DNA from: Craspedostauros australis | Taxonomy: Eukaryota > Bacillariophyta > Bacillariophyceae > Mastogloiales > Achnanthaceae | Length of the DNA: 64,000 nucleotides | Assembly (NCBI GenBank): GCA_026770025.1 | Contig: JAMXDE010000012.1 | Coordinates: forward strand, 124,001 to 188,000 | Direction: 5' to 3' | Shown: positions 32,724 through 58,020 of the stretch, piece after piece | How the letters are laid out: the number at the start of each line of letters is the position of its first letter | Numbering within the stretch: the first letter of the stretch is position 1 | Translations under genes and position numbers: made by a program | Notes under the pieces: generated by a model | What the model saw: the letters and a program-made list of their open reading frames with translations, nothing else | What the model was told of the DNA's origin: nothing | Database searches by the model: none

Positions 32724-35158
32724 ATGTTCAAGCTCCGCACATCCAAGTTCCGTCACGTCTACTGTGACCAACCCAAGCAAGAGGTAGGGAATTCTATGAG
32801 AGATGCCATGTCCAATTGATTGAGAGAGTGACAGTCCAAGAGAAACAACCGCATCGTCGTCGTGAACACCATGAACGCCAAGCAATGCCGCCAAGCAATG
32901 CAACCAAAGCCGAATCCGATCCAGCTGGTGCTGCAGTATCCGGAAGCACAGTCATTCGCTCGCAAAACCACAACAGAGTGACGGAAACCAAGAAAATCGC
33001 GTTTGCCAACCCATGGCAAGCCCAACGTCTCCGGTCACGCCAAGCTGATGCAGATGCAAAGCGCAAGCAAGGGAATGCACCAGAGGGAAAGCACTGGTTG
33101 GATCATCGCGGATCCCTTCCATCGGCTCTGTGTCGCACAGCATCAAAACGGCAGCCACACGGTTACTCCGTTTTGCATACGTGCGGGTCTGTGTTGGGCT
33201 CGGCTTCGCTGTGTGCATGCATGCATGCATGGGACATCAACGCAGCTTGGAAGAGCATGGACGTTGGATGGAGCTCACGCCTCTGCTGGCATGAGTACAA
33301 GCACTTCGCTCAGCTCTGGGATTGGCGGCATGTCCATCATCCATCGCGGCGTGAGAACCAGCATGGTGCAACAGGCGTACACATTGGCACGACGAGGCAG
33401 ATGGTCACTTTGGATGGGAAAGCTCTGCACGACAAAATGGTCGGAACATGTCTGGACTCTTGTCATCGTCTTGTGACTGTCTTGCCTTGCGTTTGTCCGG
33501 TTAGTTGTCATTCACGAAAGTCGGTTGCACATGCTCACCCTCCGACATCTGCGTTGGCAGCCTGTGTTGGCAGCCTTCCGCAATACAACACACAATGCGC
33601 CCATGCTTGTGCCACACGATTACTAACTCCCATCCACTTCCCCACGTCTTCATGTCGACACACAACCAACTTTACGGCGATAACTGGTGCTGGTGCGACT
33701 GATGGATGACTGCGATCTCATGACAATCGACCCATTCCTCGAATGCATCTATACGCTGCAAAACCAACCTTTGGCATCCGCCACCGATTGCAACAATCGC
33801 GACAATTGTGACGAATACAATTGCGACAAACACAATTGCGACAAATACAATGAATTATTGGAACCTCGCAGCAATTGCACACTGACTTCCGCCTCTCCAC
33901 ATCCACAGGCGAGCAGCAGTACATCAAGGCATCCACCAAGTACTGGGCAACGTCCTTGGCCGGTGGTGGTGGTCCAGTCCTCGTCGGTCGCCATGACCGC
34001 CCAGGACGTTTCGAGAATGGAACTTCCCAAATCGTGCAGGGACACACCGGCTCCGTCCTGGACATTGAATTCTCCCCATTCGATGACACCATGATGGCAA
34101 CCGCCTCCGAGGACACCACCATCAAGATCTGGTCCATCCCAGAGGAGTGGGAGCCAACCGACGAGAAGGGAATGGCAAGGAAGGGAGAGGACCTCCGAGA
34201 CTCCATGCTCGACCTCGAGGGACACGCCAAGAAGGTCCAGCTCCTTCGTTACCACCCAACCGCGGCCAACACCCTGCTCTCCTGCTCCGCCGACCACACC
34301 ATCAAGGTCTGGGACGTCGAGCAGTCCGAGTGCGTCAACACATTCCGCGACTTGCCGGACCTCACTCAGGACATCATCTGGGACATCCGCGGAGACAACT
34401 TCGCCGCTTCCAACAAGGACAAGGCCATCCGCCTCATGGATGGACGTACCTGCGCCGAGACTGCCAAGATCGCAAAGGCCCACGAGGGTGCCAAGTCCAT
34501 GAAGCTCCAGTACATGGGAGAGTCCGGAAAGCTCCTTTCCACGGGAGCATCCAAGCAATCCGGACGCGAGATCAAGATCTGGGATCTCAAGAACCTGTCA
34601 CAACCACTCCACACCGAGGCCGTCGACACCGCCTCTGGAGCCTTGATCCCGCTCTACGACCAGGACACCAGCGTGCTCTACCTGTGCGGTAAGGGAGACG
34701 GTATCATCCGAATCTACGAGTTCGAAGACAAGGCGCCATTCATCCACAAGCTCAACGATGGATTCCGCTCCACGACACCAGGCAAGGGATACTGCATGGC
34801 ACCAAAGCGCGGACTGGACATCATGGACTGCGAGACTGCCAGAATCATGAAGATCACAAACAGCGCCGGCATGCACCCGCTCAAGTTCATCGTGCCACGA
34901 AAATCCGACGCCTTCCAGGAGGACATCTTCCCAGACTGCCCGTCAAGCACGCCAGCCCACACTTGCATGGAATGGAAGGAGGGAAGCACCAAGCTCCCAG
35001 TGACAATGTCCCTGAACCCGAAGAACACGGGCGGTGCCAAGGCTGCTCCAAAGAAGGTGTTCAAGACAGTCCCAGTGCTCACCAAGGAGGTCGACGACTT
35101 GAAGAAGCGAGTCGAGTACCTGGAGGGCAAGCTCAGCGAGGCCGGCGTTTCGTACTAA
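32724..35158 (+). CDS. Coronin, actin-binding WD40 protein (two exons, 448 aa)
   Basis: CDS is join(32724..32783,33872..35158). Exon 1 encodes MFKLRTSKFRHVYCDQPKQE, the classic coronin start, and ends GAG|GTAGGG. Exon 2 follows the acceptor CTCGCAG and continues QLHTDFRLSTSTGEQQ. Both boundaries are phase 0. Coronins bind F-actin and work with Arp2/3 and cofilin in actin turnover at the cell cortex. The beta-propeller repeats are clear (HTGSVLDIEFSPFDD with TTIKIW; LLSCSADHTIKVWDV; KGDGIIRIYEFED). The conserved C-terminal extension of the propeller has KRGLDIMDCETARIMKI. The protein ends in a short coiled coil (LTKEVDDLKKRVEYLEGKL) that normally forms trimers. Length is normal for a short coronin. 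The poly(A) signal at 35348 fits the 3' end. Confidence 0.95.
32784..33871 (+). other. Long first intron of coronin
   Basis: At 1088 bp it is three to four times longer than the other introns here. It contains a CATG-type alternating palindrome (GTGCATGCATGCATGCATGG, about 33211-33231). Close to the acceptor there is a tandem repeat of ACAATTGCGACAAA units (about 33790-33850). An open frame of almost 300 codons starting at 32816 crosses most of it, but the translation has no recognisable domain. Confidence 0.75.
33790..33850. repeat. Short tandem repeat, ACAATTGCGACAAA unit
   Basis: Four imperfect copies of a 14-16 bp unit lie just before the coronin 3' splice site and may include the branch region. 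Confidence 0.75.
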
Positions 35159-35814
35159 ATGCGACGAACAGATACGGGTACAGTGCTGCATGCCATTATG
35201 CCACGCCATGCGCAGTCATGGGCACGAGTATGGAGATGAGCATGGGCATGCACCTGGACGCGCCACGTGTCGCGGTAGAGGATGCGACAAGGTTGCTGCG
35301 TTGGGTCGTCGAATTGGTATCAACAGCAGACAGACAAGGCCTGCATGAATAAAGTCTCTAATTGTTACTTTTTGATCGACTGGGATCCACAGGCATTCGC
35401 AGCAATCGATCACATGTGCTTTGTTTACATACGAATGTGACTGCATCCTCAGCCGCTGCTGGTATTGTAGTCGTACGAGATGCGCGTCCAAGACGCCGAT
35501 GCGCACGCTTGTGCTTTTGGCGCCAAAATTGAATGGGTTGCAGATTCGGTCCACAGCATCCATCCATTCACGAGTGTGAGGATTGTGTCAAAACACATCC
35601 GTCAGTGTTTGGCCATGTGCTGTTGTGCGTCGTGATGTGTGTGGTGCTATCTGCGGACCTTGTTGACAACACTCTCCTTCAGCATCATGCGACATCTCAA
35701 CGTCTGCTGCGCATCCACTTCACAATGGATCATCGTCAATGGGCAAGGACGCCATTATCGTGGATGGAGTCCCACCGTGGATCAGACCATCGCCCGCGCA
35801 AGAATGCACGACAA
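35159..35814. other. Intergenic, coronin 3' end and 5' flank of TTL-like gene
   Basis: It holds the coronin 3' UTR with its poly(A) signal, then the promoter of the next gene. The frame of the next protein stays open back to an ATG at 35533. That 94-residue extension would bury the signal peptide and is treated as non-coding. Confidence 0.5.
35348..35353 (+). terminator. Poly(A) signal AATAAA after coronin
   Basis: A canonical AATAAA lies 190 bp downstream of the coronin stop codon on the same strand. Confidence 0.6.
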
Positions 35815-37938
35815 ATGAACACCATGCTGGTGTCAGCTCCTTCGGTCCGACTATTGCTGCTGCTGGTGGTGTCAACGATCTTTGTAATGATGATGGCAAG
35901 TGTGACTTCCTTTGCATCGCCATCGCGCATGCCAAGGAGAATACCACACGCATCATCAACAGCTTCTGCTTTGCTCTTTCTCAACATGCGCAAAGCAGCC
36001 CCAATGAAGCACTGCACAAGCAGATCCTGTCAAAGCAGCAACAGAAACAGCATGGACGATGAGAGCAAACTCGAGATCGGCATGCTTTCTACAATTCGAT
36101 TGGGGATGCAGCAATCCAAGTTGGCCGAAGCCAACATCACGGCGGCGCACGAAGCCTGCCACACATGGTCGATCGCGCTGTCTCAACCCAACCTCCAATT
36201 GGAGCCGACCGTTCAAGTGCTCTGCTTGGCCTTGTACGCGAATTCCTTGGTGCGCATTGGCAAGGACGACGTCGCAGAAAGTGTCTACAGTCGGGCCTTG
36301 CGCATCTGCGCTGCGCAAATGCCGCAAGCGACCATCGACGAATTGAAATTGGGACGCGGACGTGCGTTGCAACGGCTGCTGCGATACGAAGATGCGAAGC
36401 GGCAGTATCTCGACATGCAGAATGGAAGTGGCAACGCAAGTATGCTGGAGGGCATCGTGGCAGCTGCAACCTGCTGCTTGCGTCTTGGTGACACGGATGG
36501 CGCCCTCGATGTGCTCAACTCGTCATCAGAGATGTTGGCAGTGCGGACTGCACAAGCGGAAGCCGATGCACCAGCCGGAGAGCCGTCAGAGGGTTGCCGT
36601 CGCCTCATTGCCGAAGTGCAAGGAATCCGCGCGACGCTCGCATTGTTGGTGGCAGATAACAGCGAACATGGCAATTGCGTTGTAGCAGCCGAAGATGAAA
36701 TCCGTTGGAAAGAAATGGTACGAGAAGCTTCTGAATGCAGTCCGCAGTACATGTGGATGCATCATGTTTTGACATTGCGGGATGGTACCCGTGATGAAGA
36801 ACAGGCGCAGGAGCAGGGTGAGATGAAGGACGCTGGCGACGAAGGAGATGGAGATGGAGCAGCTATTGCTTCTGCACCGTCTCTCTCGTTCCTTGATTTA
36901 ATCAAGATGAACCAGTCTCCATTCGACGATCCTGCCTTGCTGTTGTTGGACGACAAGGTGGAGCTTCACAGGCTTCTGACATCCAATGACAATGCAAGCC
37001 GCCAGTCCGCTCCATTTTGGCCAAGGGGGTACATCCTTCCAACGCAGATGGATCAAATCAGAGCGATGGATGTCAAAGATGGCCTTGATCATGGCGATGA
37101 GCTGTGGATTCGCAAACGCAGGTCGGGATACGGGTCGCATGGGAATCAAATTGTGACGTTACACAGTGTGGTTGCCACCGAAGACGAAAAGAGCGCAGGC
37201 TCCAACATTCGCGTTCGGACAGAGAACAAAGACGAACACGACGACGAAGAGGTGCTGCTGCAGAAAATGGTGCATCCGCCCATGCTGCTGGACGAAGGAC
37301 GCAAGTTCTCGTTGCGGATCTATGTGGTGTACTTTGGCAGCGCATCTTCGCAATACAGCATATCAGAGCTGGGTCTGGTGAAGGTGGCCAGCGAATCATT
37401 CGAAGTTGATGGCAAGTCCATGGCAGATACATCGCGCGACGATGCCAAGTACCACATGACCAATTCCGGAAGGGAACAACAGATGACGCAGCATGAGCTG
37501 GCCTATCTGCGCGATCATTTCATTGCGAACAGCCTTTCCTTCGACGAGTTTTGGCATCGCATCGAGTCTTCGATCGCGACGACCATGCAACTCTTTCGCG
37601 AGTCGACGCAAGATGCATCATTATCCCATGATGGCAATTGCAAGCAGCGCATGCAACAGCAAGGGGACACCTTCCGCAACCTGTGCCTCCCCAAAATCTT
37701 GGGACTGGATTTCGTCGTGGATGCCCATCAAAATCCATGGCTGATCGAGGTGAATCGATTTCCTGGCCTGGAGCCTCGAGATGACAGCGACATGCACGTG
37801 AAGCATCATGTTGTGCGCGAGGCCTGGCTGCAAGCGGCGTCCTTGGCATGCCCGGAAGGCAACCAGCGACATCCCTTTGAGCAGTGGTTGAGAACCAAGC
37901 CATCGCAACCAAGTAAAAGCAAAGTGAAAGAAATTTAA
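35815..37938 (+). CDS. Plastid-targeted TPR plus tubulin-tyrosine-ligase-like ATP-grasp protein (707 aa)
   Basis: The start at 35815 (MNTMLVSAPS) was chosen because it opens a signal peptide (RLLLLLVVSTIFVMMMASVT) followed by SFASPSRM, a textbook ASAFAP motif for plastid import in diatoms; the Met at 35824 is equally possible. A TPR-like helical part follows (about residues 80-260: LCLALYANSLVRIGKDDVAE, YSRALRICAAQMP). The C-terminal half is an ATP-grasp ligase of the TTL family. PFWPRGYILP opens it, RKRRSGYGSHGNQIV is the phosphate-binding loop, and VLLQKMVHPPMLLDEGRKFS leads into LRIYVVYFG. LGLDFVVDAHQNPWLIEVNR supplies the metal-binding Glu and Asn. TTL enzymes add Tyr, Glu or Gly to protein C-termini or side chains, mostly on tubulin. 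The substrate in a plastid is unknown. Confidence 0.82.
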   Translation: MNTMLVSAPSVRLLLLLVVSTIFVMMMASVTSFASPSRMPRRIPHASSTASALLFLNMRKAAPMKHCTSRSCQSSNRNSMDDESKLEIGMLSTIRLGMQQSKLAEANITAAHEACHTWSIALSQPNLQLEPTVQVLCLALYANSLVRIGKDDVAESVYSRALRICAAQMPQATIDELKLGRGRALQRLLRYEDAKRQYLDMQNGSGNASMLEGIVAAATCCLRLGDTDGALDVLNSSSEMLAVRTAQAEADAPAGEPSEGCRRLIAEVQGIRATLALLVADNSEHGNCVVAAEDEIRWKEMVREASECSPQYMWMHHVLTLRDGTRDEEQAQEQGEMKDAGDEGDGDGAAIASAPSLSFLDLIKMNQSPFDDPALLLLDDKVELHRLLTSNDNASRQSAPFWPRGYILPTQMDQIRAMDVKDGLDHGDELWIRKRRSGYGSHGNQIVTLHSVVATEDEKSAGSNIRVRTENKDEHDDEEVLLQKMVHPPMLLDEGRKFSLRIYVVYFGSASSQYSISELGLVKVASESFEVDGKSMADTSRDDAKYHMTNSGREQQMTQHELAYLRDHFIANSLSFDEFWHRIESSIATTMQLFRESTQDASLSHDGNCKQRMQQQGDTFRNLCLPKILGLDFVVDAHQNPWLIEVNRFPGLEPRDDSDMHVKHHVVREAWLQAASLACPEGNQRHPFEQWLRTKPSQPSKSKVKEI

Positions 37939-38652
37939 TTCAAATAGAGCAGAGTACAATAGAATAGATGAAAGGAGATGAGATGAGATGATATTTGATT
38001 CGATAGTTCTTGTCTTCTGCTCTTTTAATCAATGTGATGGGAGTAGATGAGATTGGCGCATTTCATCACGTTCTTGAAATTGCCTATCTTCGGTATTTGT
38101 AGACTGCGGGTGACGTTGAGACACGCGATTGAAACGCGTCCCATGATTCTTGTGATGGAGTCTTCCCATTGGTTCACGAACGAAAGCGTGACTGGCGTGT
38201 GAGTTGGATGGCTCAACCAGTCAGAATGCGTTCGTTTTGGAAACAAGTGCCAACCTCGCTCGCCTCACGTTTTCTTCCTTGTTGTGCGTTCGTTGCGAAC
38301 AGCGACCAACAGTCGCATGTTCGAAAGCGAAACACGCTCAACTGTCATGGAGGTGAGCGAGCGTTCATAAATCGCATTCTCCGGCACATTCGACCTCCTC
38401 TCATCCACAGAAGTACTCACTACGTCAGCAATAGGAAGAGAAGATCGAGGACGCAGCATTGTTGCACTCTGAGCCTCTCCTCACAACAACACAACAGGTA
38501 TCACAGAGGCAGAACAAGCGTCGCAGAGCCAAGCCTCCATCGGTTTGCAACCCGAAGGAATTGTGCACAAGCCGAAGCATCACCAGCAACACCAGAACGA
38601 GAGAGAAGACCGACGAGACCGAGACGCATTCCAACGCTATACACCGTCCAAG
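37939..38652. other. Intergenic between TTL-like and decarboxylase genes
   Basis: It begins with a GAGTA-type repeat stretch (AGAGCAGAGTACAATAGAATAG, in part 37945-37966), followed by GAGATGAGATGAGATGA. The decarboxylase frame stays open upstream to a TTG at 38545, but no ATG occurs before 38653. No other gene is seen. Confidence 0.5.
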
Positions 38653-40560
38653 ATGATGTCCCATCACCTACGCAAGCAACTGCAGCGAAGCTCCCGCCGC
38701 GCTTATCCAGCCATCGTGGAACGCAGGCTGTCGTCGTCATTGGTGTGCGCTTCCTCAACTCTGACTGCGGCTGCGCCGCCATCGCAGGTCATGTCCAACT
38801 GCAAGCTGCAGTACATGTACACCACCATGTCCAAGTCCTCGTTCCAGCAGAACACGCACAGCCTCCAGAACGAGCTGCAGAACGACCTCGACAACCTGAA
38901 GCACCAGCTGCTGCTTCCAATCAACGACCAGCGACGCGAGTCTGCCTCCATGGCGTCGCTGGAGGAAGACTCGGACGGCGACGACGCCTACGAACGTGCG
39001 GAACAGGATGCCAGCAACCGAACAGCCGCATCGTCTCGGATCGGCAACTTCAAAACCAGCGGCAACGGTGTTGACGACCAACGCCGCACCGAACTGCGAG
39101 CTTCCATCAACGAGGCAAGGAGAACCACCCTTCAGATGAACTCCGCGGCGCCCGCATTTGATGCCTGGGGAGCAAGATCTGATCAGGTCCACGACAATCT
39201 GATCAACCCCATCGACGACGACAACCTTTCGCCACAGGCTGTTCAGATACCGATCGACGACGCCTATCTTCGTGCCGATGGTTCGGCCCGGTCAGCGCCG
39301 AGAATTGGACATTCCGCGTCGTCGAATGCGATCACGCCACGCGGTCCGCAGGATGAACGCACACATGAAAGTCACGATCACCAGGAGCTGTCCATGGCCC
39401 CGGACGAGACAGCGATTCTGCAGTCGTACGACAAGCTTCTGCAATCCAATTCGTCGCTGCATTTCGGCTACCCGTACAACCTGAGCTACGACCATTCGGA
39501 GCTGTACGAATTCATGAAGTATTCCATCAACAACCTCGGCGATCCCTACATCGCCTCCAACTACGCCGTGCATTCCCGGCAGTTCGAATGCGCCGTCATC
39601 GACTTCTTCGCCAAGCTGTGGGACTTCCGCGAGCCGGACGACTACTGGGGCTACGTGACGTCCAGTGGCACAGAGGGCAACCTGCATGGCATCCTGCTGG
39701 CACGGGAACGCTTCCCCGAAGGCATTTTGTACACCAGCGAGGAGTCGCACTACAGCCTCTTCAAGGCCGCCACCTACTACCGCATGGAATGCAACAAGGT
39801 CCCCACCTTGCCCAATGGCGAAATCGATTACGAGATCCTGGAGCAGCAAATACTGGCCAATCCTGACAAGGAGGTCATCATCAATGCGAACATCGGCACC
39901 ACCGTCAAGGGTGCCGTCGACAATCTGGATCGCATCGTGGGCATCATGGAGCGCAACCAGATACCGAGGGAGCGTTATCACATCCATTGCGACGGCGCTC
40001 TGTACGGCCTCTTCGCGCCCTTCCTCTCCGACGATGTGACGCCCGACCTTTCCTTCCATTCGCAACCGATCGATTCCATCGCGGTGAGCGGGCACAAGAT
40101 GCTGGGCTGCCCCATGCCGTGCGGCATCGCCATCTGCCGCAAGGAGCACGTGATCGAGCATCACATCGACTACCTGAACAGCGTCGATTCCACCATCCTC
40201 GGCAGCCGCAACGGCCAGGCGGCCCTCTACCTCTGGTACAGCCTGCGCAAGAAGGGCATGTCCGGCATCGCCGACGACGTCCACCACTGCATGTCCACCG
40301 CGCAGTACCTCTACGAACAGCTCCAGCGCGTCGGCGTTCCTTGCCGGTACAACACGTACGGCAACACGGTGATCTTGCAGCGTCCCTCCTCCCAGGAATT
40401 CATCCGACGGTGGCAGCTGGCGTGCGAAAAGGACATGGCCCACGTCGTCGTCATGCCCAACATCACCAAATCCAAGATTGACATTTTCGTGCAGGAGCTT
40501 CAGTCGTGTCCTCCGCCCACCCAGAAGTCCACCTTCGCCACATTCGAGCAGCAGTGGTGA
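38653..40560 (+). CDS. PLP-dependent group II decarboxylase, serine/histidine decarboxylase type (635 aa)
   Basis: The first in-frame ATG gives MMSHHLRKQLQRSSRRAYPA, an Arg/Ser-rich amphipathic start that looks like a mitochondrial presequence. About 245 residues of poorly structured N-terminal extension follow, including a short coiled-coil-like part (LQNELQNDLDNLKHQLLLP). The catalytic domain runs from about residue 250. SSGTEGNLHG binds the cofactor phosphate, EESHYSLFKAA has the ring-stacking His, HCDGALYG has the Asp that contacts the pyridine nitrogen, and SGHKMLGCPMPCG has the PLP lysine (about residue 482). This pattern matches the branch containing bacterial histidine decarboxylases and plant serine decarboxylase, which makes ethanolamine. 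Serine is the more likely substrate in an alga, but the sequence alone does not decide this. The long extension is absent from typical members. Confidence 0.88.
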   Translation: MMSHHLRKQLQRSSRRAYPAIVERRLSSSLVCASSTLTAAAPPSQVMSNCKLQYMYTTMSKSSFQQNTHSLQNELQNDLDNLKHQLLLPINDQRRESASMASLEEDSDGDDAYERAEQDASNRTAASSRIGNFKTSGNGVDDQRRTELRASINEARRTTLQMNSAAPAFDAWGARSDQVHDNLINPIDDDNLSPQAVQIPIDDAYLRADGSARSAPRIGHSASSNAITPRGPQDERTHESHDHQELSMAPDETAILQSYDKLLQSNSSLHFGYPYNLSYDHSELYEFMKYSINNLGDPYIASNYAVHSRQFECAVIDFFAKLWDFREPDDYWGYVTSSGTEGNLHGILLARERFPEGILYTSEESHYSLFKAATYYRMECNKVPTLPNGEIDYEILEQQILANPDKEVIINANIGTTVKGAVDNLDRIVGIMERNQIPRERYHIHCDGALYGLFAPFLSDDVTPDLSFHSQPIDSIAVSGHKMLGCPMPCGIAICRKEHVIEHHIDYLNSVDSTILGSRNGQAALYLWYSLRKKGMSGIADDVHHCMSTAQYLYEQLQRVGVPCRYNTYGNTVILQRPSSQEFIRRWQLACEKDMAHVVVMPNITKSKIDIFVQELQSCPPPTQKSTFATFEQQW

Positions 40561-41041
40561 CAGCGCAAACGTTTCCCAGCAAGAGGAAGGATAGCTGTAC
40601 TCTAGGTTGGAACCTGACATTCACTTCACTTCACTTCTCTCTTGAGTTGCATTCGTTGAACTGGACAGCACAAAGTAGTGATTGGATGTAAAGTTGAGTG
40701 TTGTGTAGAGTAGAGTAGAACAGCGGAGCGTGGTGTAGAGAAGCAAGCAAGAACATAATACCCTTGCACAAACAACGATCGAATTGAGTGCCAAATGTCT
40801 AGTCGAGAAATAACCTGTCTGTCCTGCCATACGCGCAAAAGGTGTCTGTCGTCCACCGAAAAATGAAGTGATCGTGCGAGATGAGACCCATCAACTCATC
40901 CATTGGCAATACTCCCTGCGAATCTGCAAGGAGTCCAAACCACCCCAACTCATCATCGCCATCTCATGGGAAGCCTCCATCGAGCACGGGTAAAGACGCC
41001 AACCACAAAGAGGAAGAGAGAAGCAGAAGAAGGGAACAACG
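40561..41041. other. Intergenic with GAGTA-type repeat
   Basis: TGTAGAGTAGAGTAGAACAG at 40703-40722 belongs to the dispersed pentamer family. CTTCACTTCACTTC lies near 40623. No gene is seen. Confidence 0.55.
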
Positions 41042-42640
41042 ATGGGAAAGAGCAAGAACCGAAGCAGGAAGAGCAGGAAGAGCAATGGCTCAGCAGTCTC
41101 AGCGCCGACGTCGCCGAAGCTGAAGAGCAAGTCGAAGGATTCGCGCAGTCCCAAGAAGAAGAGGCCCTCGGGCAGCTGCGTCTCGATTGCGGTCGATGGC
41201 AGCAACGACCAGTCCAAGCACCCCATCGTCGTCTCCTTTCCCAGCGGCCTGCCGCAGGCCTTGACGGCGTCGCAGGAGGACATCCTGCAGAAGGGGCAGT
41301 TCCCGGAGTTCTACTGGCAGCAATCGCAATCGGGCAACGACCAGCGCACCGTTGCTGGCCGCGATGAGAACTGCGTCTACACGGCCACTTCGGCTGCGTC
41401 TCGTTCCCTCTCGGCCGCCACGAAGCAGGAGCCGGGCGAGGACGCGGCGCAGCCGCTGCCAACGCGCGGGAACAAGCGTGCCACGAAACTGTGCGTCGGC
41501 GTGTACGACAAGCGAACGAGGACGTTGCGCATCACGCAGGCGGCGTCCGGCGGCGCCATCTTCTCCCTGCAGCAGTCCGTGCCGACCTACCACGAAGACG
41601 AGAACACGCTGGGACGCAGCAGCAGCATCAACGACCGCGTGGCGATGGAGTACGGGCGTCTGTTTGAAGATTTCGGCAGCTCCAAGAAGCGCAAGGTCCT
41701 CAAGTCGCAGCGTGCCAATCAGGTCGATCCGAACTTCGTCGTGGGCGCCAGCGAGGGCCAGAGCGCCCTCGTCACCAGCATGCTCAAGGGCGCCGCCATG
41801 AGCTCCAGCAACCGCGAAGCCATCGAGATGCAGCTGCACAAACTGCGCGAGGAAGGCGGCGACAGCGACGATGCCAACGCGGCGCTCAAGATCCGACAGA
41901 TGGCGACGGGGGCCGATGCGGCCTACGCGGCGGCGCGCAAGGAATTCCTGCCACCGTACGACGAGCATACCAAAGAACCGCGCATGGTCTACAAGGCCAG
42001 GGATATTGTTGGCAAGGATGTGTGGGCCAAGTTCCACAAGCAGGCCACGTACGTGCTCAAGAATCATCACAGCAACGCCCTCGCCAACATCATGGCGCTG
42101 TGCAAAGAGGAGTCCGATTGGAACCAATGCATCAAGAAGATCATCGAGGAGATGATATCGACCGGCGGCGACCGCGATTCAGATCAGCTGGCCCATCAGC
42201 TCACGTGCGCCATCATCACTAACTGGATGATGAACTTCTACGCCCATTGCGCCAGGGAAAAATTCCTCGCACCCGTCAACCCCACTGCCTCCAGGTACTT
42301 TGGCATCCCCACCGAAATCGCCTCCTACAGCGTCCACAAATTCGCCAACCCCATCAGCTTCGATACAGGCAAGACGGGCTTCGCCATGACGAAGGCCAAG
42401 CGCGATAAATTCCTCGTCCACACCTTCCTCCTCTTCATGATCGCCCAGGGTCCTGCCATGACCATCCCTGATCTCAATGGCATTTCTTCGGAGCTGAAGC
42501 TGCCCGTTGTGGATGCGGGACAGCTCCTGCGCATGGCGGGATGCGTTGCCATCAAGAATTCAAAAAAGACCACGGCCGTCGCATTGAAGCTGCCGTTGGT
42601 CTTCCCGGGTCCGCGCAGGGCCGCACGATCCAAGAGATGA
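41042..42640 (+). CDS. RPA49: DNA-directed RNA polymerase I subunit RPA49 (532 aa)
   Basis: This is a single-exon gene. The protein is the A49 subunit (POLR1E in animals), which with A34.5 forms a TFIIF/TFIIE-like module that aids Pol I initiation and elongation on rDNA in the nucleolus. The first 45 residues are a Lys/Ser-rich basic tail. The dimerisation part follows (VVSFPSGLPQAL, then TKLCVGVYDKRTRTLRI). The most diagnostic stretch is YGRLFEDFGSSKKRKVLKSQ followed by RANQVD, found in RPA49 proteins generally. The C-terminal half carries the tandem winged-helix region (about 320-520) with NWMMNFYAHCA and LVHTFLLFMIAQG. Length is somewhat above yeast A49 because of the tail and linkers. The neighbours are unrelated. 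Confidence 0.88.
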   Translation: MGKSKNRSRKSRKSNGSAVSAPTSPKLKSKSKDSRSPKKKRPSGSCVSIAVDGSNDQSKHPIVVSFPSGLPQALTASQEDILQKGQFPEFYWQQSQSGNDQRTVAGRDENCVYTATSAASRSLSAATKQEPGEDAAQPLPTRGNKRATKLCVGVYDKRTRTLRITQAASGGAIFSLQQSVPTYHEDENTLGRSSSINDRVAMEYGRLFEDFGSSKKRKVLKSQRANQVDPNFVVGASEGQSALVTSMLKGAAMSSSNREAIEMQLHKLREEGGDSDDANAALKIRQMATGADAAYAAARKEFLPPYDEHTKEPRMVYKARDIVGKDVWAKFHKQATYVLKNHHSNALANIMALCKEESDWNQCIKKIIEEMISTGGDRDSDQLAHQLTCAIITNWMMNFYAHCAREKFLAPVNPTASRYFGIPTEIASYSVHKFANPISFDTGKTGFAMTKAKRDKFLVHTFLLFMIAQGPAMTIPDLNGISSELKLPVVDAGQLLRMAGCVAIKNSKKTTAVALKLPLVFPGPRRAARSKR

Positions 42641-51834: not shown

Positions 51835-53542
51835 ATGACGTCGTCACCAATTCGAAACCTCGTGCGGATACTGCTGCTGGCACTCCTCCTCAATGCTCAA
51901 TGCGTCTTCGGAAAGCGTGGTCCACGTGGTGTGAACAACGCCGCGGCTGCCAGAAGTCTCGACCGCGTGCTGAAGTCGGCAGACAAGGGAACGGACGGTG
52001 ACAGGACCACGGGAGGAGGCGATGATAGCAAGGCCAAGGAGGATAAGAAAAGCAAGGGCGACAAGAAGTCGAAGGAGAGCAAGAAAAGCAAGGAATCAAA
52101 GAAATCGAAAGAGAGCAAGAAGAAGAAGACAGAGGCGTTCAAGGAGGGCGGTCCGTCCAAGCGCAGTTGCAAGACCAGTACGTTGCGCTACATTGTACGA
52201 TTGCAACAGTGTGAGATTGGGTGATGTCGCTGTTGCGGCATTGCTTGGGGTGGTACATAATGCAGGATGCATGATTCGTTGAAACATTGTGCCGAGCTGT
52301 GCCTAGCGATGAAGACTCCGAATGCAAGTGACAACAAGCCTCTTTTCTAACACACCCTCATGCTTCACCATTTCGCTACACCTCGTCGCCGCACACAACA
52401 ATGCAAATCAATACCATGCGAAACAATCACGGCGCAATACTGGAGCAGAGAGCAAGGAGCGAGAAATCTCCGTCAAGTGCGAGTCCGAATCTGAGGATGA
52501 GATCACCGGTATTTCCGATGAGATCAAGTTCGATGTGAAGTCCAAGGAAGGAGAGGCGCTGAAGGTCAAGATCGAGTACAAGCAGCAACTCCCGACGACC
52601 GATGATGAGGCTGACGCTGACAGCTCGGAAACCACCGAGAGCAAGACAAAGTTCGAAGTCGAGTTCGATCGCGTTGTGGAGTACCAAAAGGCATCCGCCG
52701 ACGACAGCAACCTTGGATACGATTGGGAGAATGACATCGTGGTGCGTGAATGGACCATGAGCTCGTGGAACGACATGAGTCCGGTGGAAACGAAGGGGAA
52801 CACGACATCGTTCTCCGTGTCCACAGACGACGATGTTGCCACATTCACGTTCACAATCACCGACACCAGCACGGAGCAATCCGCCCTGGCAGCCAACAAG
52901 ATGAAGATCGACTTCGACCTGGACATGTTCCCTTGGGCGGAGATGGACAGCAACGTCGCCCTCATCTGCGCCGTCAAGAGCGAACAAAAGGTGCTGGTGG
53001 ACTACGATGACGGCAGCAACAGCGGTCGCAAGCCAAAGGATGTCTTCGTTGACTTTGAAGACTTGGTGGAGACCATCGGATTCACGCCATTCGGTACATA
53101 CACGTGGGACACGACCGCCGAAGCCGGTTCGTCCACCATCTCCGTAGTGGCAACATCGCCATCCGATTCCGACTCCACCGAGATCGCGTTCTCCTTCTTG
53201 GGCGACGATGCCAAGTTCGCCAGCAAGATCTTCTGGGATCCAGAAGCAGGCGTCGGGTACAGCGGCGGCAGTCCTCTGCTTATCGGCGGCGGAGGTGATG
53301 ACGTGGTCGACAACTCCAACAGCACCGACGTGAACAGCACCGACACCAACACCACAGGTGACAGAAGTGGATTCGGCAACGGCGACCTCGTCGTCGACGA
53401 TGCCCCAACAGGGCGCGACCCGATCGTTGGTGACAACAAGGATGACGGTTACCAAAAGAAGGACCCCAACAGCTCTGCAACATCGATGCGATTTGGAATC
53501 GTGGCGACATGTGCAGCCATCGTCATGGCGGCTGTTGTCTAA
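51835..53542 (+). CDS. Secreted Lys-rich surface protein A, GPI-anchor candidate (two exons, 478 aa)
   Basis: CDS is join(51835..52177,52449..53542). The donor A|GTACGT and acceptor GAGCAG join in phase 1. Exon 1 encodes a signal peptide (LVRILLLALLLNAQCVFG), KRGPRGV, two RXL sites (RSL, RVL) and a run of KSKESKK repeats rich in KxxK spacing, ending PSKRSC. Exon 2 encodes a beta-rich acidic domain: DEIKFDVKSKEGEALKVKIE, KTKFEVEFDRVVEY, ANKMKIDFDLDMFPWA, GFTPFGTYTW and WDPEAGVGY. An Asn/Ser/Thr-rich stalk with several NST glycosylation sites follows. The C-terminus is a hydrophobic segment with no cytoplasmic tail, as in GPI-anchored proteins. Signal peptide, RXL and Lys clusters recall diatom biosilica proteins of the silaffin/cingulin type. 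That link is an inference. Gene B at 55172 is a clear paralogue. Confidence 0.85.
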
Positions 53543-55171
53543 TCGCTATACCATGGAGCGCTGAGAGTGTCCTGCCATGTTTGGCACCATCGTTTTGTTT
53601 GCCAAACGACACCACGACTCTCAACACTTGATAGATACTGATGACAGATGACAAACGAAACGATGCGATGCGAATGTAAAGCAAAAGATAGTAAAGAATG
53701 ATACGAGTGTCAATAAAGCAGAGAGAGCAGCTCCTGCGTACGCGTACTCAATTCCACACAGTAGTCCGTAGCAGCACCCACATCCATCCTACCAACCAAT
53801 GACATCAAATCACGTCACGCAAACCACCAAGACAAGACATGCACGAATCTATTGACAGAGGCAGGGAACGATGAGAAACGTTTCAGCATCTGATCAACAC
53901 ACACCGTCCACTGCTCTTCATCTCTCCTTTCTTCGTGGTCGAAACAAAGCTTCAACCGTTCCTCTCATCCCAGGTGCAAGTCGCACTGGTTCTGTGAGAA
54001 CGCTCTGTTCATCCTCTCCCTCCCTCCTTTCCCTTCAAACCTCAAAATTCCGATCTCTGTCTCTGTCTCCTTTGTTTGTCATGTGTCTCCGTTTCTGTTT
54101 CTCTCCCGCCTCCTCTTCGCATCAATCGTGCATCAAGTTTTATGGACGCTGATCCGGCAGGATCGTCAATCGTTCTAGAGTGACACCACCGAAGTGGTAA
54201 GAAGTGGCACGAACCAAGGGGTATGTGACGGTCACGAAAGCCACATGGCGTGACGAGGATGAAGATGGAGGAAGCGCGATGACGTTGGTGGTGCTGACTG
54301 GTATGAAACTGCTCCTCTCCGACAATTCATCCCCCACCACTTTCTCCTTGGACACACTCATTACGATACCAATACTATCCAGTTGTCATTGGCCCCTCTG
54401 ACATCAACAAGTACACATGTGGAGGCGCCACAAGTGCACTCAATTCGTAAAACAGAGCAGAGAGTGACAGTGTTGGGATAGTGTTAGGAGTCGGAGCGGA
54501 GTGGATCGTACTGACAACCATGTCCTCTCTCTAAATCTCCGGAGTGGCTGGTACCACACATTCGTCACACTCGTCACGCTAGTCACGCTCGTTGTGGCTG
54601 GTGGAGATTCGGTACTGGTCTCGAAGTGTGAAGCGGCTTGTGCGCAATCGAATGGAAGGAGAAAGGAGAAAGATACCTCACACATGAAGAAATGGGTTGA
54701 AGTCGGCATCTCCAACGGTCGGAAACGACGACACATGATGTCAGTTCCGACATCGTTCGCGAGCAAGGCACTCCAAATCCGAGGAGGCCGAGAAGGCAAA
54801 ACCGGGAAAACCGCGACACAACAACATGACGTCATTGCAAACCAATCAATCACACACGATCTCCGCGGCGGACAACAAAACGGAGGCAAACCGTTGATGG
54901 AACAAGAAAGAGAGAAGGGTCCACAACACGACCAAACCAACCAACGAAAAACCGAACTTCATCCGATACGCAACCGCCCAATGCCAACACCTCAACGCCG
55001 CATCTCACACATCACATCAAACACAACATCGAAACATCGCAACATCGCGCATCGCACTTGCACAACACACCATCTTGTTTGGATACGATCGCATCCTCCT
55101 CATAAAAAACAAAACACACAACTGTTCACAGCCACCACCACAATTCCGCAACAACACACCACACACACGCA
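53543..55171. other. Intergenic between the two tandem surface-protein genes
   Basis: It holds the gene A 3' UTR with a poly(A) signal and the promoter of gene B. An open frame of 224 codons (54501-55175) overlaps the gene B start and reads into its A/C-rich 5' leader; its composition suggests it is not a gene. Confidence 0.5.
53712..53717 (+). terminator. Poly(A) signal AATAAA after surface protein A
   Basis: A canonical AATAAA lies 170 bp after the stop codon of gene A, on the same strand. Confidence 0.6.
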
Positions 55172-56569
55172 ATGAACTCCATCATCACGAAGCTCCTCAT
55201 CCTGGTGCTCGCAGGCATCGTCCTGCTTGCCGACAGCACCGCCGCCGCCGCCTCCAAGGGCCCACGCGGTGTCCGCAAGCCATCAACTTCGAAGAATGGC
55301 CGCAGGTTGGATAGCGAGAAGAAAAAGAAGGCACCATCCAAGCGCGAATGTGAAGTCGGTACGTTGACTCATGTCGAGGCGCGCTTTTCAACAGACGGCA
55401 ACGGTGCATGTTGTTGATAAGGTGCATTGGTATTAAGATCGAACAGTCATTGGCAATGCCGGCAATGCCTTTCTGTATGCCTCCAACACCAACTCACACG
55501 CAAGAATGCCCCTCCACTTTGTTGCTTTTCCACAACACAATCTGCTTGACTCCATTCGATTCTGCTTCACTCCGCACGACTCCGTTCCACTCCTGCGTTG
55601 ACAGAGAGAAAGAGTGACAAGGTCGAATTCAAGTGCAAGGCCAAGACAGAGAATGACGATGTCGAGATCAAGGACGAGATCAAGTTCAAGGTGTCCTCCA
55701 AGGACAACGAGGATCTCAAGGTCAAGGTGGAGTACAAGAACGAAATTGAAGAAGGAACGGGCGACAACACGACCGAGACTGAGACCAAGACCAAGTACGA
55801 GATCGAATTCGACCGCATCATCGAGTACCGCAAGGCGGACGAAGTCTCCGTGTCGGCCACCGACGCCGACTCCATGGCCTTCGATTGGGCGGCCGATACC
55901 ATCGTCAAGACCACGCAGCTCGACATGTGGGGCGAATTCAGCGATGTCATGACCGAGGGTGATATTTCAACGTTCTCCATCTCCAGCACTGAGACTGCCA
56001 CTGCCACCGTCGCCAAGTTCGACTTCACCATCTCGCGCGCCGACCGACAGAACATCACCGCCAACAAGATGAAGATCGACTTCGACCTCGATTCGTACGT
56101 GTGGGCAGCCAATGACACGTACGTCGCCCTCATCTGCTCCGTCACATCCGAGCGCAAGATCGAAGTGGAGGAGAAGGACGACAGCGGCTCCAAGGGACCC
56201 AAGCAGACCACGAAGGTGGAGATCACCTTCGATGATGCCATTGAGACCGTCGGATTCGTTCCATTTGGCGAATACACCTGGGCCGACACAGCGCAGGTCA
56301 TCGAGGGCAACAGCACCAGCAACAATACCAATGTCACCGCCAAGGAGGACGGCGAGACCATCTCCGTCATCGCCACATCCGACGGCAACTCCGATGAAAT
56401 CGCCTTCTCCTTCGTTGGAGCCGCCGCGCAGATGGCGTCCGAGATCTACTGGGACCCAGAGGCCGGTATTGGATACGGCGACGCCCCAGACGACTCTGCT
56501 GCCACTGCGATGACGACCATGTTCGCTGCCGTCGCTTCCGTCGCCTTGGGCATGTTCTCCATGCTGTAA
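55172..56569 (+). CDS. Secreted Lys-rich surface protein B, paralogue of A (two exons, 383 aa)
   Basis: CDS is join(55172..55358,55605..56569). The donor G|GTACGT and acceptor TTGACAG join in phase 1, at the same place as in gene A (after PSKRxC). Exon 1 encodes a signal peptide (MNSIITKLLILVLAGIVLLA), KGPRGVRKP, an RXL site (RRL) and a short Lys cluster (EKKKKAPSKRE). Exon 2 has the shared domain: DEIKFKVSSKDNEDLKVKVE, KTKYEIEFDRIIEYRKA, ANKMKIDFDLDSYVWA, ETVGFVPFGEYTW and IYWDPEAGIGY. A hydrophobic C-terminus (TTMFAAVASVALGMFSML) ends at the stop, again GPI-like. It lacks A's long Lys repeats and Asn-rich stalk. No known domain name was recognised. Attachment to the outer membrane or cell wall is inferred from the termini. 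Confidence 0.85.
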
Positions 56570-56888
56570 GCGTACCCGGCAGGCGACCGTTTTCGATTGC
56601 TGTCGTGGGACTAATACGGCAACGAGCGAGAGAGAGAGAGCAAGCAAACAAGAATGAAAGCAAACAAGCAAGCATACCATTTGCATAAGAAGCGCAACAC
56701 CTTGGTTGCATTCCATCTGCGAGGTCATGATACGTACGATCCGGCAAAGGCAGATGGCATCCTCAACTACACCTACATACAACACAAAATATAGATTCCA
56801 AACCATCAACATTGAATTTCTTCCACACAGCGGGTGCATCTGCGTGTGAAAATGTTGACGCGGGCCCAAATGAAAGGTAGGGTAGACG

Positions 56889-56931
<43 letters not shown>

Positions 56932-57240
56932 GGCGAAACGATCCAATTCCAGTTCGGCAGCCGCCTGTCTCGCTTTGGATTCGATGCTATGGTACTGAAG
57001 AAGCTGCTCGGGTGGAAACAACAAAAATGGCGCGAAACATCACCCAGCCAAAGATTTCTTGGTCGACCGCAACCACGCCGCCGTTGGGATACGACTGCAG
57101 AGCAAGAAGTCGCCATTCCCATTCCCACAACAGTCTTGTAGGCACCGCTGTTGACGTGTCGCAATGACCCTCGAGAACATGCGCGTGGACTGCCGCTGTG
57201 GCTGCCGTTGGACCAAGAAAGGCAACGGCTGCGTGTTGTG
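56570..57240. other. Intergenic with GTT microsatellite
   Basis: It holds the gene B 3' flank, a GAGA run (about 56628-56640) and a long GTT repeat. The frame of the next gene extends upstream to a TTG at 57151 but has no ATG before 57241. Confidence 0.5.
56888..56930. repeat. GTT trinucleotide microsatellite
   Basis: About 14 perfect GTT units, in non-coding DNA between the surface-protein and GCR1-like genes. Confidence 0.93.
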
Positions 57241-58020
57241 ATGGCAAGACCAGATCGCATTACAAGATCCGCCATGTACACAGACCACAAAAAGACCATG
57301 AGCGCAATGATGAGTCCGTGCGAATCGCACAGCCTCGTGCAACAGGAGGAAGACCAGAACTTAGACAGCGACACTGAATCGTTTGCCTCCGACAGCGACG
57401 CCTACGACAGCGATCTCAACGACAGCGATCTCAACGACAGCGAAGATAGCAGCTCCGATGACAACTGCGAAGAACCGCGCGACGCAAGCGCCGACGACCC
57501 TGCCGCCGTCCTGCGGGAACTGAAGACCGTCAAGGCGCAGCTCGAAGGCATCGCCGCAACGTTGGCGCGAGTCTCGAAGCGCGCTGCCTGCCACTGCCAT
57601 GCCGCCGGACCATCTCAACGCCCATCAAAGCGCCGCTCCTTCCATGCGCAGGACGACGATGCATCGCGGACAGAGCCTCCCACCAGAACGAAGAACGAGG
57701 GCAAGCCGGCAACGTTGAGCCACAAAGTGAAGACGCTGCACGATCTCTGGCGGGAGTACACGGTCGGCATCGATGGAAACACACCCGCCAAGGATTTCAC
57801 CCCGGCGCAGCTCAGGGGGAGGAGATCTTTGTACGACTTCCGTAGCGTCGCATGGATGTGCATCAAGGGACATATCAAGGATGGAAAGTCGGCGGAGGAT
57901 GCGATTGAGACAATCTACGATACTTACGGTCACGGTCTGCCCTACACCAAGATCATTGCCGCGATCCGCCGAGACAACATCAAGAGGACTGGAAAATACC
58001 GGCGCCGCGCACACGGCTAG
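57241..58020 (+). CDS. Acidic protein with GCR1_C-like DNA-binding domain (259 aa)
   Basis: The first ATG at 57241 (MARPDRITRSAMYTDHKK) is used; the Met at 57274 is also possible. The first third is acidic with a DSDLNDSDLNDS repeat. A short helix (VLRELKTVKAQLEGIAATLA) and a basic patch follow. The C-terminal 90 residues have VKTLHDLWREYTVGIDGNTP, then LRGRRSLYDFRSVAWMCIKG and IIAAIRRDNIKR. The LWREYTVGI core resembles the GCR1_C domain of the fungal glycolytic activator Gcr1, also found in Crypton elements and in stramenopile proteins. The middle of the domain is diverged. A DNA-binding role is inferred from this weak match. No recombinase domain is present, so this is not an intact Crypton. 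Confidence 0.65.
   Translation: MARPDRITRSAMYTDHKKTMSAMMSPCESHSLVQQEEDQNLDSDTESFASDSDAYDSDLNDSDLNDSEDSSSDDNCEEPRDASADDPAAVLRELKTVKAQLEGIAATLARVSKRAACHCHAAGPSQRPSKRRSFHAQDDDASRTEPPTRTKNEGKPATLSHKVKTLHDLWREYTVGIDGNTPAKDFTPAQLRGRRSLYDFRSVAWMCIKGHIKDGKSAEDAIETIYDTYGHGLPYTKIIAAIRRDNIKRTGKYRRRAHG

Follow-up and report, generated by a model that had tools for sequence, protein, structure and literature searches.

The stretch of DNA considered here, called the window below, comprises 64,000 nucleotides of the diatom Craspedostauros australis (positions 124001-188000 of contig C10). It carries a tandem pair of genes, A and B, which together with a third paralogue, C, form a genuine compact family that is unclassified in the libraries searched and probably encodes GPI-anchored (glycosylphosphatidylinositol-anchored) surface proteins with a processed N-terminus. 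Gene A (51835-53542, + strand) has a product of 478 amino acids and gene B (55172-56569, + strand) one of 383. Both lie on the same strand with a spacing of 1.63 kb, and their parts are the following.

51835..52177 (+): gene A, exon 1; hydrophobic signal peptide-like N-terminus, KRGPRGV, RSL40/RVL44, Lys-rich array with KSKESK repeats, PSKRSC
52178..52448 (+): gene A, intron of 271 nt, phase 1, GTACGT...GCAG, site picked to agree with B and C
52449..53542 (+): gene A, exon 2; acidic domain (module 1, residues 112-260; module 2, residues 261-385), Asn/Asp/Gly/Thr-rich linker, hydrophobic C-terminus, stop
55172..55358 (+): gene B, exon 1; hydrophobic N-terminal stretch, SKGPRGV, RRL44, KKKK, PSKREC
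55359..55604 (+): gene B, intron of 246 nt, phase 1, GTACGT...ACAG
55605..56569 (+): gene B, exon 2; acidic domain (residues 60-353), short linker, hydrophobic C-terminus, stop

An earlier note on this DNA had described two neighbouring same-strand genes with a common layout and a single intron at a matching place. Both points hold at the coordinates listed, and the introns of A and B, each of phase 1, fall at an identical position of the alignment. Gene A allows 16 in-frame splice pairs, of which the one given was picked because it agrees with B and C. Four further features of that description are also found: K(R)GPRGV (KRGPRGV in A, SKGPRGV in B), RXL tripeptides, a shared acidic domain and a hydrophobic C-terminus without a tail.

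Paralogue C encodes 492 amino acids on the minus strand of contig C10, approximately 1.19 Mb from the A/B pair (exons 1369081-1368733 and 1368371-1367242, intron of 361 nt). It has the intron site, RXL, the motif P[ST]KRxC, the domain and the tail in common with A and B, and it lacks KGPRGV and the Lys cluster. P[ST]KRxC is present in all three proteins, and in each gene the phase 1 intron follows directly after it. Three Cys columns are invariant across A, B and C. In exon 2, B is 56% identical to C and 44% identical to A. With B closer to C than to the adjacent gene A, the tandem pair seems old, and the three sequences suggest that C branched off from the B lineage. The proportions of nonsynonymous and synonymous differences (pN/pS) in the shared domain are 0.374/0.629 for A-B, 0.368/0.655 for A-C and 0.281/0.651 for B-C. 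As pN is well below pS in every pair, the domain is a constrained protein under purifying selection. Protein searches of the species' own genome (74.8 Mb in 90 contigs) with part of the A domain and nearly all of the C and B domains, in which only the best candidates are scored, returned A, B and C alone. The next matches, with E-values of 0.2, 1.1 and 2.7, are at chance level.

Each protein is split by charge into a basic leader and an acidic remainder. The isoelectric points of the leaders are 10.2, 11.5 and 10.2 in A, B and C, and those of domain plus linker are 4.05, 4.18 and 4.05 (boundaries set by eye). The N-terminus is hydrophobic in all three, the best 15-residue mean hydropathy being 2.2, 2.81 and 1.87. 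The signal peptide previously ascribed to A and B is thus a putative one, a hydrophobic N-terminus recognised by hydropathy and by eye. RXL tripeptides occur in the leader of every member, after the hydrophobic stretch in A (RSL40 and RVL44) and B (RRL44), and at RRL32 and RRL47 in C. None is found in the three domains. Protein A has two extra ones, RNL7 and RIL11, but these lie within the hydrophobic N-terminus.

Two targeting ideas raised by the N-termini were rejected. As a genome-wide targeting motif, KGPRGV fails because the degenerate DNA pattern gave 32 matches against 41 for its reversed control. Among the 30 of the 32 matches that were read, a hydrophobic N-terminus precedes the motif, by eye, in A and B only. 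Plastid targeting of C, suggested by a Trp just past the N-terminal stretch, was rejected on general targeting rules, because of the acidic residues in the leader and the GPI-like C-terminus.

The leaders differ in composition. That of A contains 23 Lys in 85 residues and ten KXXK motifs in which X is other than Ser or Gly. The leader of B has KKKK within 33 residues, and that of C is Ser/Thr-rich with four N-glycosylation sequons. Pentalysine clusters, defined as five non-consecutive Lys in 12-14 residues, were counted as windows of that size. Twenty-one such windows lie in the leader of A and none in those of B and C, each of which has three past the leader, at the start of the domain. The Lys cluster that the earlier note had placed in both genes is thus strong in A and reduced in B to KKKK, with no window in the leader. 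The argument built on a Lys module consequently bears on A alone.

In the collections searched, the domain matches no family, in keeping with the earlier note. In Pfam, the best match of A and B had an E-value of 0.22 and 12.3 bits against a cut-off of 25, and in NCBIfam the best match of A, B and C had an E-value of 0.0033 and 16.2 bits against a cut-off of 964, with another at 0.1. A sequence search of the PDB with B gave no match. Profile searches of the PDB gave best E-values of 1 and 0.27, the latter for a plant XTH entry that is taken as chance. Scans of viral contigs, prokaryotic genomes, plasmids and phages by short peptide patterns, which work best for close relatives, yielded no relatives of the domain. 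The domain is unclassified in the sense of being absent from all these collections. The runs 'FDRIIEY...FDW..D.IV....W' and 'WDP..G.GY' may resemble an uncharacterised extracellular domain found in many eukaryotes, a likeness that serves only as a lead.

Within the domain, modules 1 and 2 look alike by eye, both containing TK.E..FD..(I/V)E. A one-to-one BLASTP comparison of the two halves of C gave an E-value of 0.006. With hhalign, the two modules aligned at a score of 22.0, whereas 100 column shuffles reached at most 19.4 and the reversed control 11.5; the probability was only 5.8%. These values are weakly suggestive of a two-module internal repeat.

All three proteins end inside a hydrophobic stretch with nothing after it. 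Their last 16 residues are hydrophobic and carry no charge, which is the case in none of 19 control ORFs (the other open reading frames of the window, read stop to stop, of at least 290 amino acids and not all proven genes). A GPI-type C-terminal signal pattern, with small residues and a short spacer ahead of the uncharged hydrophobic end, is seen in A, B and C, the small residues, spacer and omega sites being assigned by eye. The genome contains one Peptidase_C13 match, the frame of which we take to be GPI8, the catalytic subunit of the GPI transamidase. With a GPI8-like gene in the genome, GPI anchoring is probably available to the cell. Alternatively, the proteins could resemble those of the silicalemma and span a membrane of the secretory route once, with a C-terminal helix instead of a GPI anchor holding them in place. 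The mean hydropathy of the C-terminal 15-residue stretch (2.54, 2.04 and 2.47 in A, B and C) would suit such a helix. However, the uncharged ends with nothing past the stretch speak against it, and a cytosolic part is described both for the silicalemma-associated proteins (SAPs) and for silicanin (PMC5647440, PMC5525289). We regard this alternative as improbable.

N-glycosylation sequons and GPI-type tails are common in surface proteins. The mature parts of A, B and C contain 4, 6 and 16 such sequons, respectively. A, B and C could be general cell-surface proteins, acting in adhesion, mating or the binding of ligands or carbohydrates, with no special link to silica and with RXL as a common pro-protein site of the lineage. 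It is in keeping with this that the conserved part of the family is the acidic domain and not the Lys array. A CBM_21 match in A points the same way, far below the cut-off as it is (E-value 0.34, 11.6 bits against 28.9). Against it, no adhesion or binding family was found at a meaningful score. This explanation deserves serious weight, at a little under even chances. It concerns the role of the proteins, as does direct silica association, and both partly overlap with the reading of A, B and C as GPI-anchored surface proteins.

The known silica-associated proteins of diatoms are compared here with the family by their published descriptions, as given in excerpts of the papers cited. An RXL after the signal peptide is reported to be typical of biosilica proteins (PMC5647440, PMC5525289). 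The silaffins, cingulins and silaffin-like proteins of T. pseudonana have in common with the family a signal peptide-like N-terminus and RXL, and with A also pentalysine clusters, which are a silica-targeting signal of silaffins (PMC5501833, PMC9650480). Silaffin-like proteins are defined by repeated KXXK in which X is Ser or Gly (PMC5501833), whereas K[SG][SG]K is absent from A, B and C and a Lys array is found in A only. Unlike in silaffins, most of the protein in A, B and C is a conserved acidic domain with a GPI-like tail.

The membrane-bound families come closer in plan. SAPs consist of a signal peptide, RXL, a Ser-rich region, a helix and a conserved cytoplasmic domain (PMC5647440), and they share with A, B and C the N-terminal RXL and, as predicted for the latter three, a signal peptide and membrane attachment towards the C-terminus. 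However, A, B and C have nothing past the hydrophobic stretch where the cytoplasmic domain of SAPs follows, and their leaders have 12/85, 5/33 and 16/90 Ser, compared with 18/23 in the Ser-rich luminal region of TpSAP1. Silicanin-1 has a signal peptide, a stretch ending in RRL, an NQ-rich domain with 18 Cys, a helix and a cytosolic domain (PMC5525289). Common to both are a short stretch ending in RRL and, by prediction in the family, a signal peptide, a large luminal domain and a C-terminal membrane anchor, but the family differs from silicanin-1 as described in having three invariant Cys, no NQ-rich domain with 18 Cys and no cytosolic tail. SiMat7-like proteins have RXL, a C-terminal helix and eight conserved Cys (PMC5501833); they resemble the family in RXL, the C-terminal hydrophobic segment and the signal peptide, putative in the family, and differ in the number of conserved Cys, which is three in A, B and C. 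By the features compared, A, B and C do not belong to the SAPs, silicanins or SiMat7-like proteins. Their predicted plan, that of a secreted protein which has an RXL near the N-terminus and is attached to the membrane at the C-terminus, is also the plan of silicanin-1, SAPs and SiMat7-like proteins, with the defining domain of none. In the excerpts compared, none of the RXL families is given as GPI-anchored, and no GPI-anchored wall family was among the literature matches listed. In the excerpt of one diatom paper, 'GPI-anchored' appears only in a reference title (PMC6156597).

Silicon transporters are abundant in this genome. The silicon-transporter family PF03842 has 88 matching stretches. 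By our count, about 32 of them span almost the full profile, 28 without an in-frame stop. Of eight loci fetched, the four that were read in frame (L010, L014, L015 and L016) carry the EGxQ and GRQ motifs, and their protein sequences agree to 96-100%; the other four were left out of this comparison. The silicon-transporter genes have apparently undergone a large and recent amplification. Parmales and other lineages have silicon transporters too. Copy numbers up to more than 30 are described for diatoms and Parmales in the excerpt of a 2026 paper (PMC13403384), and parmalean genomes of 31-44 Mb with many two-domain silicon transporters in that of another (PMC10328945). As a separate observation, eight transporter loci (L009-L016, on contigs C11, C9, C54, C37, C24 and C61) have pairwise DNA identities of 89-98%, mostly over the gene alone, and three pairs among them share long flanks.

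A wealth of silicon transporters would fit a family acting directly on silica. In this explanation, the proteins would be delivered to the silica deposition vesicle, cleavage at RXL would free the basic leader, and the leader or the acidic domain would act on silica in the manner of silaffins or silacidins. The position of RXL after the putative signal peptide and the 21 pentalysine windows of A favour it as well. Opposed to these are the missing Lys array in B and C and the absence of K[SG][SG]K from all three, and a soluble matrix protein would need no GPI tail. We consider this explanation rather unlikely. A silica role is possible; what points to it is RXL and, for A only, the pentalysine clusters.

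We moderately favour the view that A, B and C are a small old family of RXL-processed, GPI-anchored, glycosylated and secreted surface proteins, perhaps located at the interface of wall and membrane. In its favour are the common site and phase of the intron, RXL in every leader and in none of the domains, P[ST]KRxC, the charge split, the uncharged hydrophobic ends, the GPI8-like gene, the silicon transporters and the N-glycosylation sequons. We infer the processing steps, the location and the wall role from sequence. The proteins would enter the endoplasmic reticulum via the signal peptide, and a short pro-piece would be cut off at the RXL tripeptide. A second cut may follow at P[ST]KR, a conserved dibasic site that directly precedes the first conserved Cys. 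The C-terminal hydrophobic signal would be exchanged for a GPI anchor, and domain and linker would be N-glycosylated. The mature product would then consist of an acidic ectodomain that a flexible stalk holds at the plasma membrane or its vesicle precursors. The basic N-terminal module would be either shed or kept as a polycationic arm, in A one with pentalysine clusters. Because such clusters direct silaffins to silica, A could bridge wall silica and membrane.

Several points weigh against this view. The signal-peptide and GPI assignments were made by hydropathy and by eye. RXL has a background of 14%, being present in 1323 of 9482 overlapping 30-residue windows of long ORFs, and it was retained in 12%, 13% and 31% of cases after shuffling of each of the three leaders. 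Its presence in three of three leaders is unlikely by chance, with a product of about 0.005 if the occurrences were independent, but A, B and C are kin and their occurrences are not. Cleavage at RXL is still to be proven, according to the excerpted text of PMC5647440. The Lys array is confined to A, and pentalysine windows also occur in four of the 19 other ORFs, one of them RNA polymerase I A49-like. The suggestion of the earlier note that A and B may be membrane-tethered wall proteins finds partial support in the hydrophobic N-terminus, leader RXL and GPI-type tail in all three members, the transporter-rich genome and the GPI8-like gene. It is weakened by the Lys module not being a family trait, by the lack of K[SG][SG]K and by the RXL background. 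A wall role of the family is possible, and a direct silica role of the whole family is less likely than the note held.

The attachment of the silica wall to the cell membrane is poorly understood. It can be imagined that the family is a GPI-tethered, two-faced wall family with a basic leader and an acidic domain, one member of which has a silica-seeking Lys arm that becomes exposed or is set free by RXL/KR processing; frustule silica would then be fastened to the plasma membrane by a lipid-anchored protein. We think this a long shot. If A, B and C are GPI-anchored and RXL-bearing proteins with an unclassified domain, they offer a concrete, taggable candidate for wall-membrane attachment. If they are a general surface family instead, they still bring to light an unclassified extracellular domain in algae that use silica.

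The surroundings of the pair contain ordinary genes. A row on the + strand at 33854-42637 consists of WD40, tubulin-tyrosine ligase, pyridoxal phosphate-dependent decarboxylase and RNA polymerase I A49 genes. Downstream of gene B, a perfect GTT microsatellite of 14.7 copies lies at 56888-56931. It is followed by an ORF at 57142-58017 (+) with a GCR1_C domain (E-value 3.2e-5), ahead of which is an acidic stretch rich in Asp and Ser.

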